Assembly (NCBI RefSeq): GCF_002214805.1
Contig: NZ_CP019914.1
Span: 992,001 to 1,056,000 of the forward strand
Origin: Brachyspira hampsonii
GTDB lineage: Bacteria > Spirochaetota > Brachyspiria > Brachyspirales > Brachyspiraceae
Length of the DNA: 64,000 bases
Direction: 5' to 3'
Shown here piece by piece: positions 29,018 to 34,844 of this stretch (the first letter of the stretch is position 1; every line of letters begins with the position of its first letter). Made by a program: the position numbers and the translations under genes. The notes below the pieces were generated by a model, which saw only the letters and a list, made by a program, of their open reading frames with translations, was not told the origin of the DNA and made no database searches.

Positions 29018-29611
29018 ATGCTTGAAAAATTAGTAATAGCAACAGCAAATAAACATAAATTAAAAGAAATAGAATCTATATTTAAGGGAAGTGTAATAAA
29101 AGAGATATTATCAATGCCTTCAGATATAGGCGAAATAATAGAAGACGGAAATACATTCATAGAAAACTCTCTTATAAAAGCAAAAACAGTATATAATCAT
29201 ACTAAACTTCCATCTTTGGCAGATGATTCAGGACTTTGTGTTAATGCACTTGGGGGAAAACCCGGAATATATTCTGCAAGATACGGAGGAGAGAGTTTAG
29301 GATATAAAGAAAAAATGCAGATGCTTTTAGATGAATTAAAAGATAAAAAAGACACAACTGCATACTTTATAACTTCTGCAGTATGCGTATTAGATGATAA
29401 TTATTATATAGCAGTTGAAGGCAGGGTCAATGGAAAAATAATAGAAAATCCAAGAGGTTTTGAAGGTTTCGGATATGATCCTATATTTCAGCCTGACGGA
29501 TATAATATTACTTATGCTGAAATGAGCCTTGAAGAAAAAAATTCTATGAGTCATAGAGCATTAGCTATGAATAAAATGAAAAATATTTTATCTTGTATTT
29601 ATAATTATTAA
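29018..29611 (+). CDS. rdgB: XTP/dITP diphosphatase
   Basis: 197 residues of the HAM1/RdgB family. It shows VIATANKHKLKEIE at the N-terminus, ADDSGLCVNALGGKPGIYSARYGG in the middle and EGFGYDPIF plus SHRALA near the end. It hydrolyses non-canonical purine triphosphates (XTP, dITP) to monophosphates and keeps them out of DNA and RNA. It follows the GyrI-like gene directly. The ROK regulator begins 15 bases later. Confidence 0.95.
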   Translation: MLEKLVIATANKHKLKEIESIFKGSVIKEILSMPSDIGEIIEDGNTFIENSLIKAKTVYNHTKLPSLADDSGLCVNALGGKPGIYSARYGGESLGYKEKMQMLLDELKDKKDTTAYFITSAVCVLDDNYYIAVEGRVNGKIIENPRGFEGFGYDPIFQPDGYNITYAEMSLEEKNSMSHRALAMNKMKNILSCIYNY

Positions 29612-29626
29612 CATGAGGGTATGATA

Positions 29627-30784
29627 TTGAAGCATATTACTGAAATAAAATCTAAAAATAAAAAAGATATAATAAAACTTTTATATAAAAAAAATATTAT
29701 GTCTAAAAAACGAATAGCGGCAGAATTAGAATTATCTCCTTCTGTTATTACTAAACTATGCTCAGAATTAATTAAAGAAAATATATTAGTAGAAATGAAT
29801 AGAATAGACAGCAAAAAATTAGGAAGAAAAGAAGTAGAGATAAAAATAAATCCAAATTATAAAAAATGTATAGGCATAACTATAAATCATATATCAACTG
29901 ATATTTTACTTGTGGATATGCAGTTTCAAGTTATAGAAAAGGTATCTTTCAAAACAAGTACAAATTATGAAAATGATTTATTAAAAATAGTTAGTACAGT
30001 ACAAGAAATCATATATAACTATTCACTTAATAATAAAGATATTCTTGGTATAGGAATAAGTATAAAAGGCAATACTGACGGCATATATTCATATTCAGGT
30101 ATTTGGGGTACAAAAGTGAATATAAAAGATTATATAGAAAATCATTTAAATATACCAACGGTTATAGATAATGGTATAAGATGCAGTGCTTTGCTTGAAC
30201 AATTATATTCCAATGAAGATAATTTCATGTTCATTAAATATATGGAGCCTGGAATTGGAGGTGCTATAATATTAAATGGAAGTATAAAACGAGGAGAAAA
30301 TAATTTAATAATGGATTTTGGACATATGATAATTGATACTAATTCAGATTATTGCAATATTTGTAAAAGGAAAGGCTGCTTAGAAAGTATTATATCCATT
30401 GAAAAAATTTTAATTAATGTAAAAAATAATTTCTCTAAAGAATTCTGTCCTGTACTATGGGAAATATGCAGCGGAGATTTGAACAACATCAATATCTCAA
30501 ATATAATAAAAGCAGCAGATAATGGCTGTATAAATATTAATAATATATTCAAAAAAAATGCTCAGTATTTTGCATTATGTTTAATAAATACATATTCTAT
30601 TATGGATGTAAATAAAATAATAATTATAGGAGATTTATTCTCTTCAAAACGTTTTGTATCATATTTCAGAACTGCTGTTGAAGAATACCAATTAACAGAT
30701 ATTTATGATAAAATAGAAATGCATTTTCATGAAAATGTTCTACTTTCTCCTGTAGCTTTGCTTTTAAATGAGTATTTATTTTAA
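29627..30784 (+). CDS. ROK family transcriptional regulator
   Basis: 385 residues. A winged helix-turn-helix lies at ~20-65 (SKKRIAAELELSPSVITKLC). The ROK sugar-kinase-like domain follows, with GIGISIKGNTDG and the zinc motif CNICKRKGCLES. The ATP-site signature DxGxT of true kinases is replaced (GITINHISTD), so it is a NagC/Xyl-R-type regulator rather than a kinase. I prefer the TTG at 29627, seven bases after GAGGG, over the ATG at 29621 that touches it. It converges on the sulfatase operon, the most likely target by position. Confidence 0.88.
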   Translation: MKHITEIKSKNKKDIIKLLYKKNIMSKKRIAAELELSPSVITKLCSELIKENILVEMNRIDSKKLGRKEVEIKINPNYKKCIGITINHISTDILLVDMQFQVIEKVSFKTSTNYENDLLKIVSTVQEIIYNYSLNNKDILGIGISIKGNTDGIYSYSGIWGTKVNIKDYIENHLNIPTVIDNGIRCSALLEQLYSNEDNFMFIKYMEPGIGGAIILNGSIKRGENNLIMDFGHMIIDTNSDYCNICKRKGCLESIISIEKILINVKNNFSKEFCPVLWEICSGDLNNINISNIIKAADNGCININNIFKKNAQYFALCLINTYSIMDVNKIIIIGDLFSSKRFVSYFRTAVEEYQLTDIYDKIEMHFHENVLLSPVALLLNEYLF

Positions 30785-30817
30785 TTGGGCATATACTAAT
30801 TTTATATATACCCAATT
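30783..30817. terminator. Stem-loop between convergent ROK and sulfatase genes
   Basis: AATTGGG and CCCAATT close a hairpin with further A-T pairs inside. It has no long T-run on either side but lies where both transcripts should end. Confidence 0.5.
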
Positions 30818-30830
30818 AAAAATAATATAT

Positions 30831-32336
30831 TTACTTTTTCTCATCATTTAATATTTTTTTTCTAACCGCATTAATCATAGGAAGTCCCGTATCATAATCA
30901 AGCTGACGAGGTTCATTTTCTTCATTTTCTCTCTGTCTTGTATATCCGTCATTATTCCAATTAGGTACTTTATCTTTTCTCCAATATCTTGCCGCCCACT
31001 GATATCCTCTGTATAAATCTCTTGTTCTGTTCATATTATCCAAAAGTTTATCATGTAATTTATTTCTAATCTCTTTGTAGTTTTCATCATTTATAAGATT
31101 ATTAACCTCATAAGGATCTTTCTCTAAATCATAAAACTCATCACTGTCCAATAAATTAATAACAAGTTTATACCTGTCATCAACAACCGCCCTCATCATT
31201 TGAAGTCCGCCGAAACCATCATGATCTACTTCATATCTTGTAAACTCTAAAAACACCTCATCATTTATCCTAACATTAGGATCTTCAATTTGCTTTAACA
31301 TACTTTTTCCTTCAAATACTTTAGGTATTTTAACATTCATATAATCTAGTATAGTAGGTGCTAAATCTATATGAGAAGCAGGATATGATACTGTTTTTTC
31401 CTTTTCCTTATATTTAATTATAAGAGGTATATTAGCTATTTCTTTATAAGCACATGCATTTTTCATTTGAAGTTTATGAGCACCAAGCATATCTCCATGA
31501 TCCGATGTAAATATAATCATAGCATCAGAAGCTATTTCATTTACTTTATCAATAACTCTGCCTATTTCATAATCTACAAAAGAATTACATCCTAAAAATA
31601 AAGCTAATTGTTTGGAAGGCTTATTTATTTCATTAGCTTTTTGATGCAAAGCCTCTCCAGCCCATAATCTTTGCATAAGAGGCTTATTCTCTAAATTATC
31701 ATTAAAAACTGTATCATCATCAAATTTGAATCCCTCATACATTGTATTATACGGTGCAGGACATAAACAAGGTCCATGCGGTTCATCATAAGATACTACC
31801 AAAAGAAAATCTTCATCTTTATACTCATCTAAAAATTTCAAAGCTCTATTAGAACATCTATGTGCATAAGTGAAATCTTCTTTCATATCATCATTATAAG
31901 AAGTTTCAGACTTTCTGGATTTTACTCTGTCTTCTTCGCTTAGTTCATCAAGATAATTTTTCATATCATACCAATAATTTTTATCCCATCCATCAGGACA
32001 AACACCATATCCGAAATAATCTCCCCCATCAAGATGCCATTTGCCTATATATCCGCAATGTATATCATTAGAAGTTAATATCTGTCCTATACTTTTTACT
32101 CCCTCCCTTAAAGAAACACAGTTGGTAACCATTCCATTAGTATGAGGAAAAGTACCTGTAAATATAGAAGATCTTGCAGGACCGCATACAGGCTGACATG
32201 TATAAGCATTTTCATATTTTATGCCGTTTTCTGCTAATTTATCTAAATTCGGAGTTATCATTTTTTTGTTTCCATAGCAGCCAAGCATATCTTTTCTTGT
32301 AGTATCCGTCATAATAAAAACTATTTGCTTTTTCAT
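30831..32336 (-). CDS. Type I sulfatase
   Basis: 501 residues of the arylsulfatase family. C51 in CGPAR is the residue converted to formylglycine (C-x-P-x-R core). Metal ligands appear in DTTRKDMLG near the start and in SDHGDMLGAHK in the middle. GKWHL is a further family mark. No signal peptide, so it is cytoplasmic and acts on imported sulfated sugars. The C-type core needs an anaerobic sulfatase maturase or FGE encoded elsewhere. It lies three bases after a sugar-type symporter, and together they form a sulfated-saccharide operon. Confidence 0.93.
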   Translation of the reverse strand: MKKQIVFIMTDTTRKDMLGCYGNKKMITPNLDKLAENGIKYENAYTCQPVCGPARSSIFTGTFPHTNGMVTNCVSLREGVKSIGQILTSNDIHCGYIGKWHLDGGDYFGYGVCPDGWDKNYWYDMKNYLDELSEEDRVKSRKSETSYNDDMKEDFTYAHRCSNRALKFLDEYKDEDFLLVVSYDEPHGPCLCPAPYNTMYEGFKFDDDTVFNDNLENKPLMQRLWAGEALHQKANEINKPSKQLALFLGCNSFVDYEIGRVIDKVNEIASDAMIIFTSDHGDMLGAHKLQMKNACAYKEIANIPLIIKYKEKEKTVSYPASHIDLAPTILDYMNVKIPKVFEGKSMLKQIEDPNVRINDEVFLEFTRYEVDHDGFGGLQMMRAVVDDRYKLVINLLDSDEFYDLEKDPYEVNNLINDENYKEIRNKLHDKLLDNMNRTRDLYRGYQWAARYWRKDKVPNWNNDGYTRQRENEENEPRQLDYDTGLPMINAVRKKILNDEKK

Positions 32337-32339
32337 AAA

Positions 32340-34034
32340 TTATTCCTTACTAAATTTTATTTTTACAGCTATAAATGATACTACAGAAATTATAACATAT
32401 ATCAATGTTATAACAATAAATTTACTTTTTATATTTTCTTGAGAAGTAACTATTCCTATCTTAGAAAATAATACATACAAATAAATTAAAGTTGTAATCA
32501 TTACAGCAGATACAGGCTTAGCCCATTTCCAAGAAGTTAAATCAACTTGCTTAGTATATTTCTGAACATAAGGTGTTTCCCTTGGAGATATTATGCCGGA
32601 TATAAGCATTATCACTACACAGCATACAAACAATATCCCATATATATGCAGATAATGTATTTTTATAGGTATAACAAATTTATATAAAGAATAACATACT
32701 ATAAAAAATACTATTGATATTTTAGCACCAATAGCAGGCACTCTTTTTGTAGCAAATCCCATAAGCACAACTACCAATGTAGGTATATTAAAAAATCCCA
32801 TAACGCTTTTCATAAAAGAATAAAGTCCATCAGGTGCTTTAGCTATATTAGGGGCAACAAATATAGAAAATATGCACACTATAGTTCCAAATATCTTACC
32901 TATAAATACCAATTTTTTATCGTCTACATTAGGGCTAAATATAGGCTTATAAATATTTAAGCAAAACATAGTAGAAGCCGAATTCAAAGCAGAATTAAAA
33001 GAGCTTAAAACAGCTCCAAACAATACAGCTCCGAAAAATCCTACCAAAGGTAAAGGCAGTACATTACTAACTAATACAGAATAAGCTAAATCCTGATGTG
33101 TAATTTGATCTTTATATAAATGAAATCCTATAATACCTGGGATAACTAACATAACAGGGACAAACATCTTTATGAACCCTGCTATAAGTGTTCCTATTTG
33201 CCCTTCTTTTAAATTTTTTGCTGCAAATGCTCTTTGAACTATTTGCTGATTTGTGCACCAATAAAATAAGTTTACAAGAAACATTCCTGTAAATAGTGTA
33301 GAAAAAGGTGCATCACTTGTAGAACTTCCTATAGCATTCATCTTTTCTGGATTCACTAATACTAAAGTTTCTAATCCATTAAATAAACTTCCATCACCAA
33401 GTTTAAGAAGTCCCAATATAGGAATCATAAGTCCGCCAATTAAAAGCAATACTCCATTTATGGTATCAGATACAGCAACTGCCTTTAATCCTCCAAATAT
33501 GGCATATATACCTCCTACAATTCCTGTAAAAATAATTACTATAAATAATGAAGTATCTCTAGATACATGTAAAATTTCAGAAACATTAAATAATGAATTA
33601 ACAGCTATACCCCCAGAATACAAAATAATAGGCAGAACAATAAAAGTCAAACTTATAAGAAATAATCCTGTAACCATATTTCTAGTACCTATATCAAATC
33701 TCTCCTCTAAAAACTCAGGTACAGTAGTAAATCCGCTTTTTAAATACCTAGGTAAAAAAATTAATGCCATTATTACAAGTGATAATCCTGATGTAGTTTC
33801 CCAAGCCATAGATGATAATCCATGTTTAAATCCATTTCCATTAAGTCCAACTAATTGTTCGGCTGAAAGATTTGTAAGTATCAATGAACCCGCTATTACT
33901 ATTCCGCTTAAACTTCTTCCTGCTAAAAAATATCCTTCATTTGTGGATAAATCATCTTTTTTAGTTATTATCCAAGATATAAATGCAACTAAAGCTGTAA
34001 AAAATAAAAAAGAAATAATAATTAAATAATTCAT
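32340..34034 (-). CDS. Sodium:solute symporter (SSS/SLC5 family)
   Basis: 564 residues with about 14 membrane segments. Family motifs include the N-terminal SWIITKKDDLSTNEGYFLAG and GRSLSGIVIAGSLILTNLSAEQLVG, and a sodium-site region SSFNSALNSASTMF. Members carry sugars such as galactose, sialic acid or sulfated sugars with sodium. Here the substrate should be that of the sulfatase downstream, by operon logic. A strong promoter and palindrome lie upstream. Confidence 0.92.
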   Translation of the reverse strand: MNYLIIISFLFFTALVAFISWIITKKDDLSTNEGYFLAGRSLSGIVIAGSLILTNLSAEQLVGLNGNGFKHGLSSMAWETTSGLSLVIMALIFLPRYLKSGFTTVPEFLEERFDIGTRNMVTGLFLISLTFIVLPIILYSGGIAVNSLFNVSEILHVSRDTSLFIVIIFTGIVGGIYAIFGGLKAVAVSDTINGVLLLIGGLMIPILGLLKLGDGSLFNGLETLVLVNPEKMNAIGSSTSDAPFSTLFTGMFLVNLFYWCTNQQIVQRAFAAKNLKEGQIGTLIAGFIKMFVPVMLVIPGIIGFHLYKDQITHQDLAYSVLVSNVLPLPLVGFFGAVLFGAVLSSFNSALNSASTMFCLNIYKPIFSPNVDDKKLVFIGKIFGTIVCIFSIFVAPNIAKAPDGLYSFMKSVMGFFNIPTLVVVLMGFATKRVPAIGAKISIVFFIVCYSLYKFVIPIKIHYLHIYGILFVCCVVIMLISGIISPRETPYVQKYTKQVDLTSWKWAKPVSAVMITTLIYLYVLFSKIGIVTSQENIKSKFIVITLIYVIISVVSFIAVKIKFSKE

Positions 34035-34066
34035 ACATACCTCATATTAATTTATAAAAGAAATTA

Positions 34067-34087
34067 TATACTATTAAATATAGTATA
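34067..34087. promoter_or_regulatory. Palindromic operator overlapping the symporter promoter
   Basis: TATACTAT and ATAGTATA are perfect 8-base arms with a five-base centre. They cover the -10 (TATATT, minus strand 34082-34077). A regulator bound here would block transcription of the symporter-sulfatase operon. Confidence 0.5.
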
Positions 34088-34105
34088 ATTATTTTATATT
34101 GTCAA
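34077..34105 (-). promoter_or_regulatory. Promoter of the symporter-sulfatase operon
   Basis: On the minus strand TTGACA (34105-34100), 17 bases, TATATT (34082-34077). Confidence 0.65.
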
Positions 34106-34271: not shown

Positions 34272-34299
34272 TTGACAATGAAAAAAAACTTTATATAAT
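34272..34299 (+). promoter_or_regulatory. Promoter of the unknown gene-cstA operon
   Basis: TTGACA, 16 bases, TATAAT, 20 bases before the start codon; GGAGAAATAAG gives the ribosome-binding site. Confidence 0.7.
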
Positions 34300-34319
34300 A
34301 TATAGCATGGAGAAATAAG

Positions 34320-34844
34320 ATGGCTAAACTTCACATTGATAATGAAGAGGTAAAAAAATACATATTCAATGTTTCAGAAAAATTGATGAGACATTTTGAT
34401 TTAGAATATGAAATTACCAAAGAAGATGAATATTTTGATCTATATGCTTTTCATAGGAATGATTTCTTCAAATCATTTATAACTAAATCTACAGTATATG
34501 AAGGTTATTCTGTATTTGAACATATGCTTTTAAGATTTGTTAAGGAATTAAAAAAAGAAGATATTGAAAATTTTCAAAATATGCTTATTAGGCTTACTCC
34601 TATATTATCAAATCCTAATAAATTTCATAAAAGAAGTCTAATAACAGGAATATTAGTTACAGAAAGCCATTTAGAAAAAGAATGGGAAAAGATGGCTAAA
34701 AAGTTTTTTTATAAAGTCAATTACAAATTACTATTTCATGGATGGTCAGAAACACAGTATGCCATAGTGTCGATGACTGATAAAGCTGTATACTTACCTA
34801 AGATGAGAAAGAAAGAGTTAAAACTTCTTCTTTCGGATTTTTAG
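34320..34844 (+). CDS. Unknown soluble protein upstream of cstA
   Basis: 174 residues, charged and lysine-rich, with mixed helix and strand and no membrane segment or signal. Phrases such as DLYAFHRNDFFKSFITKSTVYEGYSVFEHMLL suggest a globular domain. I do not recognise it. It has its own consensus promoter and sits 31 bases before cstA, so it is expressed with the peptide/carbon-starvation carrier. Confidence 0.6.
   Translation: MAKLHIDNEEVKKYIFNVSEKLMRHFDLEYEITKEDEYFDLYAFHRNDFFKSFITKSTVYEGYSVFEHMLLRFVKELKKEDIENFQNMLIRLTPILSNPNKFHKRSLITGILVTESHLEKEWEKMAKKFFYKVNYKLLFHGWSETQYAIVSMTDKAVYLPKMRKKELKLLLSDF

Follow-up and report, generated by a model that had tools for sequence, protein, structure and literature searches.

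A YidK/YidJ-type symporter-sulfatase pair with its own ROK gene in Brachyspira hampsonii, and a candidate substrate bearing sulfate on C6

Background

In Escherichia coli K-12, the neighbouring genes yidK and yidJ encode a symporter of the sodium/solute symporter (SSS) family and a cytoplasmic sulfatase of the Cys type, in that order. The two genes overlap by 4 bases, and YidL, recorded as a putative DNA-binding regulator and presumably an AraC-type protein, is encoded divergently from yidK. In the accessible part of one report, deletion of yidK has a growth phenotype on galactose, and the role of YidK was called unknown in 2017 (PMC5293155). The accessible part of another lists sulfatase-like, yidK, mutarotase and sulfatase-maturase gene groups together in Pasteurella multocida (PMC10986470). 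No paper assigning the pair a substrate was found in the accessible text of the open-licence literature searched. Here we describe a variant of this pair in Brachyspira hampsonii, where the symporter and sulfatase genes are faced by a gene for a ROK-family regulator. The window, that is, the whole stretch of DNA analysed, comprises 64,000 nucleotides (assembly GCF_002214805.1, contig NZ_CP019914.1, positions 992,001 to 1,056,000).

The symporter belongs to the same SSS/SLC5 family as vSGLT of Vibrio parahaemolyticus and human SGLT1 (hSGLT1). According to the accessible text on vSGLT, its galactose site comprises Q69, N260, K294 and Q428, with E88, Q428, Q69, E68 and N64 as hydrogen-bond partners (PMC4270436). 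When a Vibrio homologue is aligned to both proteins, vSGLT Q428 corresponds to hSGLT1 Q457. In the accessible text on hSGLT1, Q457 bonds the pyranose oxygen and the C6 hydroxyl in models of the inward-facing state, and the variant Q457R retains 1.7% of wild-type neutral-sugar uptake (PMC8410129).

A variant of yidK-yidJ

The genome that holds the window (G000) is a single contig of 3,189,639 bases. A sequence-only reading of the window had described a cytoplasmic Cys-type sulfatase, an SSS symporter three bases away and a ROK regulator converging on the pair, and all three descriptions hold (Table 1): the sulfatase reading frame lies on the minus strand with the motif CGPAR and no leader ahead of the catalytic core, the spacing to the symporter gene is three bases (32337-32339), and the ROK frame runs towards them from its TTG start. 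The symporter scores 761.8 bits against NCBIfam PRK10484 (cut-off 401), a model that we take to be represented by E. coli YidK, and is 49% identical to YidK itself. Across 493 positions the sulfatase shares 44% identity with YidJ, and it matches the Pfam profiles Sulfatase (3.7e-55) and SGSH_C (4.4e-22). Its CGPAR fits the C/S-x-P-x-R signature that, with the catalytic residues, defines S1 formylglycine sulfatases; D11, C51, R55, K99, H101, H187, D279, H280 and K288, which we presume to have catalytic roles, are invariant in a four-sequence alignment. The proposal that these genes form an uptake and desulfation unit with its own ROK gene is thus supported by families, gene order and orthology. 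Since a ROK gene stands in place of one for a YidL-type regulator, the locus is a variant of the pair and does not reproduce the E. coli arrangement. The families are known ones; what is new is this variant of yidKJ, to which we attach a specific substrate hypothesis.

Table 1. Features of the symporter-sulfatase unit (positions in the window)
Feature	Position	Strand	Details
rdgB/ham1	29018-29611		upstream neighbour of ROK gene
ROK-family regulator	29627..30784	+	385 aa from TTG; winged helix-turn-helix + ROK domain
Hairpin between convergent ROK and sulfatase genes	30784..30818		no clear T-run
YidJ-type sulfatase	30831..32336	-	501 aa; Cys type (CGPAR); predicted cytoplasmic
YidK-type sodium/solute symporter	32340..34034	-	564 aa
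Candidate operator	34067..34087	.	perfect dyad TATACTAT-N5-ATAGTATA; full sequence TATACTATTAAATATAGTATA
Sigma-70-like promoter of the symporter-sulfatase operon	34077..34105	-	TTGACA (34105-34100), 17-nt spacer, TATATT (34082-34077); kept in G004 and G024

These gene families, the gene order and orthology, a maturase-like gene, galactokinase-signature genes and a lysine in the sugar pocket (Lys409) are established by computation, and they suggest the following scheme. The YidK-type symporter would use the sodium gradient to import a small hexose that bears a sulfate, with which Lys409, in a position that lies towards C6 of the sugar in SGLT-type transporters, would pair. Once activated by the anaerobic sulfatase maturase of the genome, the YidJ-type enzyme would cleave off the sulfate inside the cell, and the freed hexose would enter central metabolism. 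The adjacent ROK protein would keep the operon repressed as long as neither the sugar nor its sulfate ester is available, perhaps by way of the dyad over the -10 element. We give an even chance to this reading of the locus as a ROK-controlled version of yidK-yidJ for import and cytoplasmic desulfation, with galactose 6-sulfate as the preferred substrate.

A charged residue in the sugar pocket

In a HMMER alignment to vSGLT with the numbering matched (K294 is an Ala mutant in 2XQ2), the Brachyspira symporter keeps N64, Q69, E88, S91, N260, Y263 and K294, all of the surveyed galactose contacts but one. The exception is Q428, which is Lys409 here and also Lys in E. coli YidK. With a positive charge beside C6 and the hydroxyl contacts retained, the pocket points to a hexose sulfated on C6, and galactose is favoured by the gene neighbours of relatives with Gln at this position and by the phenotype of the yidK deletion on galactose. 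We therefore infer that the substrate is a 6-O-sulfated hexose, most likely galactose 6-sulfate. The earlier guess of a sulfated N-acetylglucosamine or galactose is thereby narrowed: a sulfated sugar stands, with the pocket favouring a C6-sulfated hexose with free hydroxyls, and N-acetylglucosamine 6-sulfate appears the less favoured of the two. That mucin or glycosaminoglycan is the source of the sugar is a guess.

The residue at vSGLT position 428 was surveyed in all symporter homologues that tblastn found in the collected loci with an E-value of at most 1e-60 and an alignment covering residues 60-420 (83 rows, 60 distinct), and neighbours within 3.5 kb were scored for a sulfatase, a YihQ-type enzyme (presumably a sulfoquinovosidase), an alpha-galactosidase, a galactokinase or an inositol dehydrogenase. 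Lys was found in 8, Arg in 5, Gln in 20, Asn in 25 and Asp in 2. All eight Lys homologues have a sulfatase gene within 3.5 kb, and three of the five Arg homologues have a sulfur gene, one in the sulfatase operon of a second Brachyspiraceae genus (G546) and two beside a YihQ-type enzyme (Burkholderia and Paraburkholderia). Among the Gln, Asn and Asp homologues, neither a sulfatase nor a YihQ-type gene was found within 3.5 kb in any of 47, at 20 of which less than 3.5 kb was present on at least one side. Fisher's test of residue against sulfur neighbours gives p = 2e-10 with relatedness ignored. Lys409 is thus associated with sulfur-handling neighbours, would favour sulfate in the pocket, and may, as one charged residue, account for the sulfate preference of the transporter. 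Of the 20 Gln homologues, 7 have an alpha-galactosidase or galactokinase gene within 3.5 kb.

Five Lys or Arg members surfaced after the hypothesis had been set down. Three fit it, namely a Cetobacterium plasmid symporter (Lys) near a different sulfatase and the Burkholderia and Paraburkholderia plasmid symporters (Arg) near a YihQ-type enzyme, and two (L202 and L211/L212) do not. On the Burkholderia multivorans plasmid NZ_CP048444, a related symporter carries its positive residue in the same place, as Arg and not Lys, and the locus has no sulfatase; its genes encode instead a YihQ-type enzyme (980 bits against PRK10426, cut-off 553), an SMP-30 lactonase, an aldehyde dehydrogenase and a TauE-type exporter. 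We take this set to be the sulfo-Entner-Doudoroff route for breaking down sulfoquinovose, whose C6 carries a sulfonate, and the substrate would again bear sulfur on C6.

More generally, it may be that a single change of charge in transmembrane helix 10 (vSGLT Q428/hSGLT1 Q457 to Lys or Arg) makes SGLT-fold symporters import sugars with sulfur on C6, Lys serving sulfate esters and Arg sulfoquinovose, and that the yidKJ units of gut bacteria, E. coli included, scavenge galactose 6-sulfate with cytoplasmic desulfation. We hold this tentatively, at slightly under an even chance. If true, a residue code would predict which of the many SSS transporters handle sugars with a sulfate or sulfonate group, and yidK and yidJ, orphan genes of the best-known bacterium, would gain a testable substrate. 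There would also be a second route to mucin-type sulfated sugars, in which the sulfated monosaccharide is imported and then desulfated inside, and the human SGLT1 Q457R disease variant would have a natural counterpart.

Two groups of loci from the survey deserve mention. On a Cetobacterium somerae plasmid (L203 2564-6725), the gene for a Lys-428 symporter with an altered pocket is transcribed away from those for a GntR regulator and a different sulfatase (28% identical); its substrate is perhaps a different sulfated compound. YidK-like symporters with Gln adjoin GH36 alpha-galactosidase, GH42 beta-galactosidase or galactokinase genes in G677 (L185 5674-11630), G019 (L186 5583-9477) and G569 (L187 4508-7470), which suggests that they carry galactose or galactosides.

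Distribution of the unit

Among 26 Brachyspira genomes searched, five have a sulfatase orthologue (84% identity or more), and the same three, G000, G004 and G024, have orthologues of both the symporter and the ROK protein (92% or more each). A symporter homologue of 45% identity lies beside an alpha-galactosidase gene in G019. In G005 the sulfatase is intact and the symporter and ROK genes are lost, only their 3' tails being left, and a stretch with an inverted repeat sits where the symporter was. In G014 the sulfatase gene is near a contig end, without symporter or ROK genes. The stretches that replace or precede genes beside the sulfatase in these two genomes (L058 7100-7550 in G005; L060 1-480 in G014) have inverted-repeat ends or repeated blocks and short GC-richer segments, and look like intergenic mobile repeats of Brachyspira.

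A scan of a wider collection gave 378 confirmed relatives of the sulfatase, of which 80 loci were listed, 78 of them outside Brachyspira. A symporter homologue was present at two of these 78, in Anaerocolumna sp. MB42-C2 (L084) and Caproicibacter fermentans (L094), and in both a ROK orthologue (57% and 49% identity, respectively) is divergent from the symporter gene. The order symporter then sulfatase recurs in the three Brachyspira genomes, these two Clostridia, E. coli K-12 and G546, which has two SSS genes. No fewer than three types of regulator accompany the pair: ROK in Brachyspira and the Clostridia, GntR in G546 and YidL in E. coli. The G546 locus (L184 5340-11298) consists of tandem Lys and Arg symporters followed by one YidJ-type sulfatase, with a GntR/UTRA regulator. 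Symporter homologues were found at 1e-150 in 2 of 397 genomes in a sample of the Anaerocolumna family, and at 1e-120 in 23 of 394 from the Caproicibacter order, 2 of 398 from its phylum and 7 of 392 from the Spirochaete phylum. The YidJ-type sulfatase most often occurs without a YidK-type symporter.

Maturation and alternative substrates

The lack of a sulfatase maturase in the genome had been named as grounds for giving up the unit, and a maturase-like gene is present in G000 (C1:2778341-2779420). Its best model is PRK13758, the anaerobic sulfatase-maturase. A match to the radical-SAM maturase model TIGR03942 (E-value 1e-20 or better) occurs in 14 of the 26 Brachyspira genomes, in 7 of them above the curated cut-off. 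It is found in 14 of the 15 genomes with any sulfatase match, including all five with a YidJ-type orthologue, and in none of the 11 without; the threshold is a loose one, since 5 of 14 control genomes also match. The sole Brachyspira genome with a sulfatase match (G011:C38:65202-66584) but no maturase match is an assembly of 110 contigs, so the gene may be lost from it. Two more Cys-type sulfatase genes (474 and 447 aa) lie in G000:C1:205000-224000, in a cluster with ABC transporter genes, and the genome therefore has at least three sulfatases. For use of the freed sugar, 25 of the 26 genomes, G000 among them, carry a galactokinase signature (PF10509).

The sulfatase was also considered as a guide to the substrate, and set aside because its best matches among solved structures are too diverse to decide (the best, S1_30A, at 153 bits). 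The same unit could instead handle N-acetylglucosamine 6-sulfate or another amino-sugar sulfate from mucin or from keratan or heparan sulfate. The nearest named relatives of the ROK protein are of the NagC/Mlc type, and an N-acetylglucosamine-6-sulfatase (5g2v, 130.6 bits) is among the solved relatives of the sulfatase, a set whose diversity leaves the question unsettled. We nevertheless find this unlikely, given that the symporter retains the vSGLT galactose contacts, that 7 of the 20 Gln relatives lie by galactosidase or galactokinase genes, and that this pocket would presumably have to accommodate a bulky N-acetyl group at C2. Even less probable, in our judgement, is a sulfate or phosphate ester that is not a sugar, such as choline sulfate, an aryl sulfate or a phosphodiester. 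The E. coli record does label YidJ a "putative sulfatase/phosphatase", and choline-sulfatase and arylsulfatase models match, though at 172 and 197.7 bits they are far under their cut-offs of 433 and 481; the transporter, however, is of the SGLT sugar type with its galactose contacts kept, and the enzyme carries the sulfatase Cys (CGPAR).

Points against the proposed role

Several results weigh against import and desulfation of galactose 6-sulfate as the role of the unit. Two Arg homologues, L202 (Staphylococcus) and L212 (G1571), have no sulfatase or YihQ-type gene within 3.5 kb, and the short flanks of the Gln, Asn and Asp loci count here too. An inositol-dehydrogenase-like gene lies near 9 of those 47 (five Gln, three Asn, one Asp), so the family as a whole reaches beyond galactose. 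Other pocket residues differ in two of the Lys transporters, the first symporter of G546 and that of Cetobacterium (N64S, E88S/T, K294I/L). The tree needs three changes and does not reject a single Lys/Arg clade (p-AU 0.268), and only one independent pair lies on well-supported branches; the association with sulfur is strong, yet it may reflect one event. As to gene content, two of the five Brachyspira sulfatase orthologues (G005 and G014) are without the symporter, as are 76 of the 78 non-Brachyspira sulfatase loci listed, and the maturase-like match in G000 falls under the curated cut-offs of both PRK13758 (356.7 bits against 441) and TIGR03942 (330 against 349). The weakest part is the dyad as an operator, being within chance and not specially conserved.

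Lys409 could accordingly be the marker of one transporter lineage, unrelated to sulfate, an account that we think possible at somewhat less than even probability. A single Lys/Arg origin is allowed by the tree, and two Arg members stand without sulfur genes. The Lys/Arg set nevertheless spans three sulfur contexts (the YidJ-type sulfatase, another sulfatase and the YihQ-type enzyme), and in the accessible text on hSGLT1 a positive charge at this position blocks transport of neutral sugar (PMC8410129).

The ROK protein and the palindrome

The ROK protein matches Pfam ROK (1.4e-30) and HTH_24 (6.8e-05) and so combines a winged helix-turn-helix (HTH) with a ROK domain. It shares this architecture and a GH...C...C...GCLE cysteine region with the ROK repressors NagC, Mlc, XylR and Lmo0178. 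It differs from NagC and Mlc in scoring far under their equivalog cut-offs, and from Lmo0178 in cysteine spacing (C-x-C in the Lmo0178 alignment against C-x2-C in each of the five aligned orthologues). The orthologues in G004 and G024 are 97% and 92% identical, and the HTH of the two clostridial orthologues is near-identical. The ROK gene belongs to the symporter-sulfatase unit, since it accompanies the symporter in all three Brachyspira genomes and the same three genes occur in the two Clostridia. This co-presence, the joint loss in G005 and the divergent placement in the Clostridia lead us to infer that the ROK protein controls the operon, probably as a repressor.

The sequence-only reading had placed a perfect palindrome over the -10 element of the operon promoter as a candidate ROK operator. 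The palindrome is there, with zero mismatches and overlapping TATATT, and its absence upstream of the orthologous operon, which would have told against it, was not observed: it is kept in all three Brachyspira genomes with the whole unit. All 21 bases are the same in G004, and 18 of 21 in G024, where the changes are central (one in an arm, two in the spacer) and leave 15 of the 16 arm bases as they were. Within the window, the motif with up to three mismatches is enriched (13 matches against a mean of 4.9, a count reached in 0 of 100 shuffles).

Perfect dyads with arms of 8 or more and loops of 0-9, however, number 26 in the window against 30, 31, 36, 19, 24 and 44 in six shuffles, and such a dyad arises in 59.6% of cases when the 285-bp intergenic region is shuffled 1000 times and in 20% when a 50-bp promoter segment is shuffled 2000 times. 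In the intergenic alignment of G000 and G024, 120 of 281 equal-length windows are conserved at least as well as the dyad. Genome-wide, with up to two mismatches, the motif has 65 matches against 59 for a reversed control, and no regulon-wide set was found in the 26 genomes, where the motif has 12 matches and the reversed control 26. At the two ROK-SSS-sulfatase loci of Clostridia no matching dyad was seen, only weak AT-rich dyads of other sequence. The palindrome was therefore rejected as evidence of regulation, and a status as established ROK operator is not supported; it is a candidate only. The expectation of further copies near other sugar genes (nagB, GH2) likewise found no regulon-wide signal, the nagB and GH2 promoters not having been individually inspected. 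A second perfect copy in G000 (C1:2059853), 30 bases ahead of an esterase-like reading frame, was considered as a second target and not accepted because the 7+7 pattern was found in G004 and G024 only at the operon.

It is a serious alternative, only a little short of an even call, that the operon is free of control by the ROK protein, or is controlled without the palindrome, and that the dyad is an accident of an AT-rich -10 region. Its commonness in shuffles, the lack of special conservation, of a clostridial counterpart and of a regulon all favour an accident. Against it, the changes in G024 spare nearly all arm bases, and the ROK and SSS genes occur together in three of three Brachyspira genomes, are co-lost in G005 and adjoin in two Clostridia with the ROK gene divergent.

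Gene calls and neighbouring features

The unit is flanked by rdgB/ham1 on one side and an unnamed 174-aa gene on the other. From its first ATG the ROK reading frame would span 29621-30784; the TTG at 29627 is more likely the start, being common to G004 and G024 and having GAGGG seven bases upstream. As the ROK gene starts only 15 bases past rdgB/ham1, it may use the rdgB/ham1 promoter. The hairpin between the convergent genes is a possible two-way terminator: folding of 30784-30830 gives -14.7 kcal/mol (z -3.1) for the strand of the sulfatase gene and -7.6 (z -2.0) for that of the ROK gene, and a similar sequence is present in G005. The 174-aa protein (34320-34844) has no match in Pfam or NCBIfam. 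A consensus promoter, TTGACA-16-TATAAT (12/12), lies at 34272-34319 for the gene divergent from the operon.

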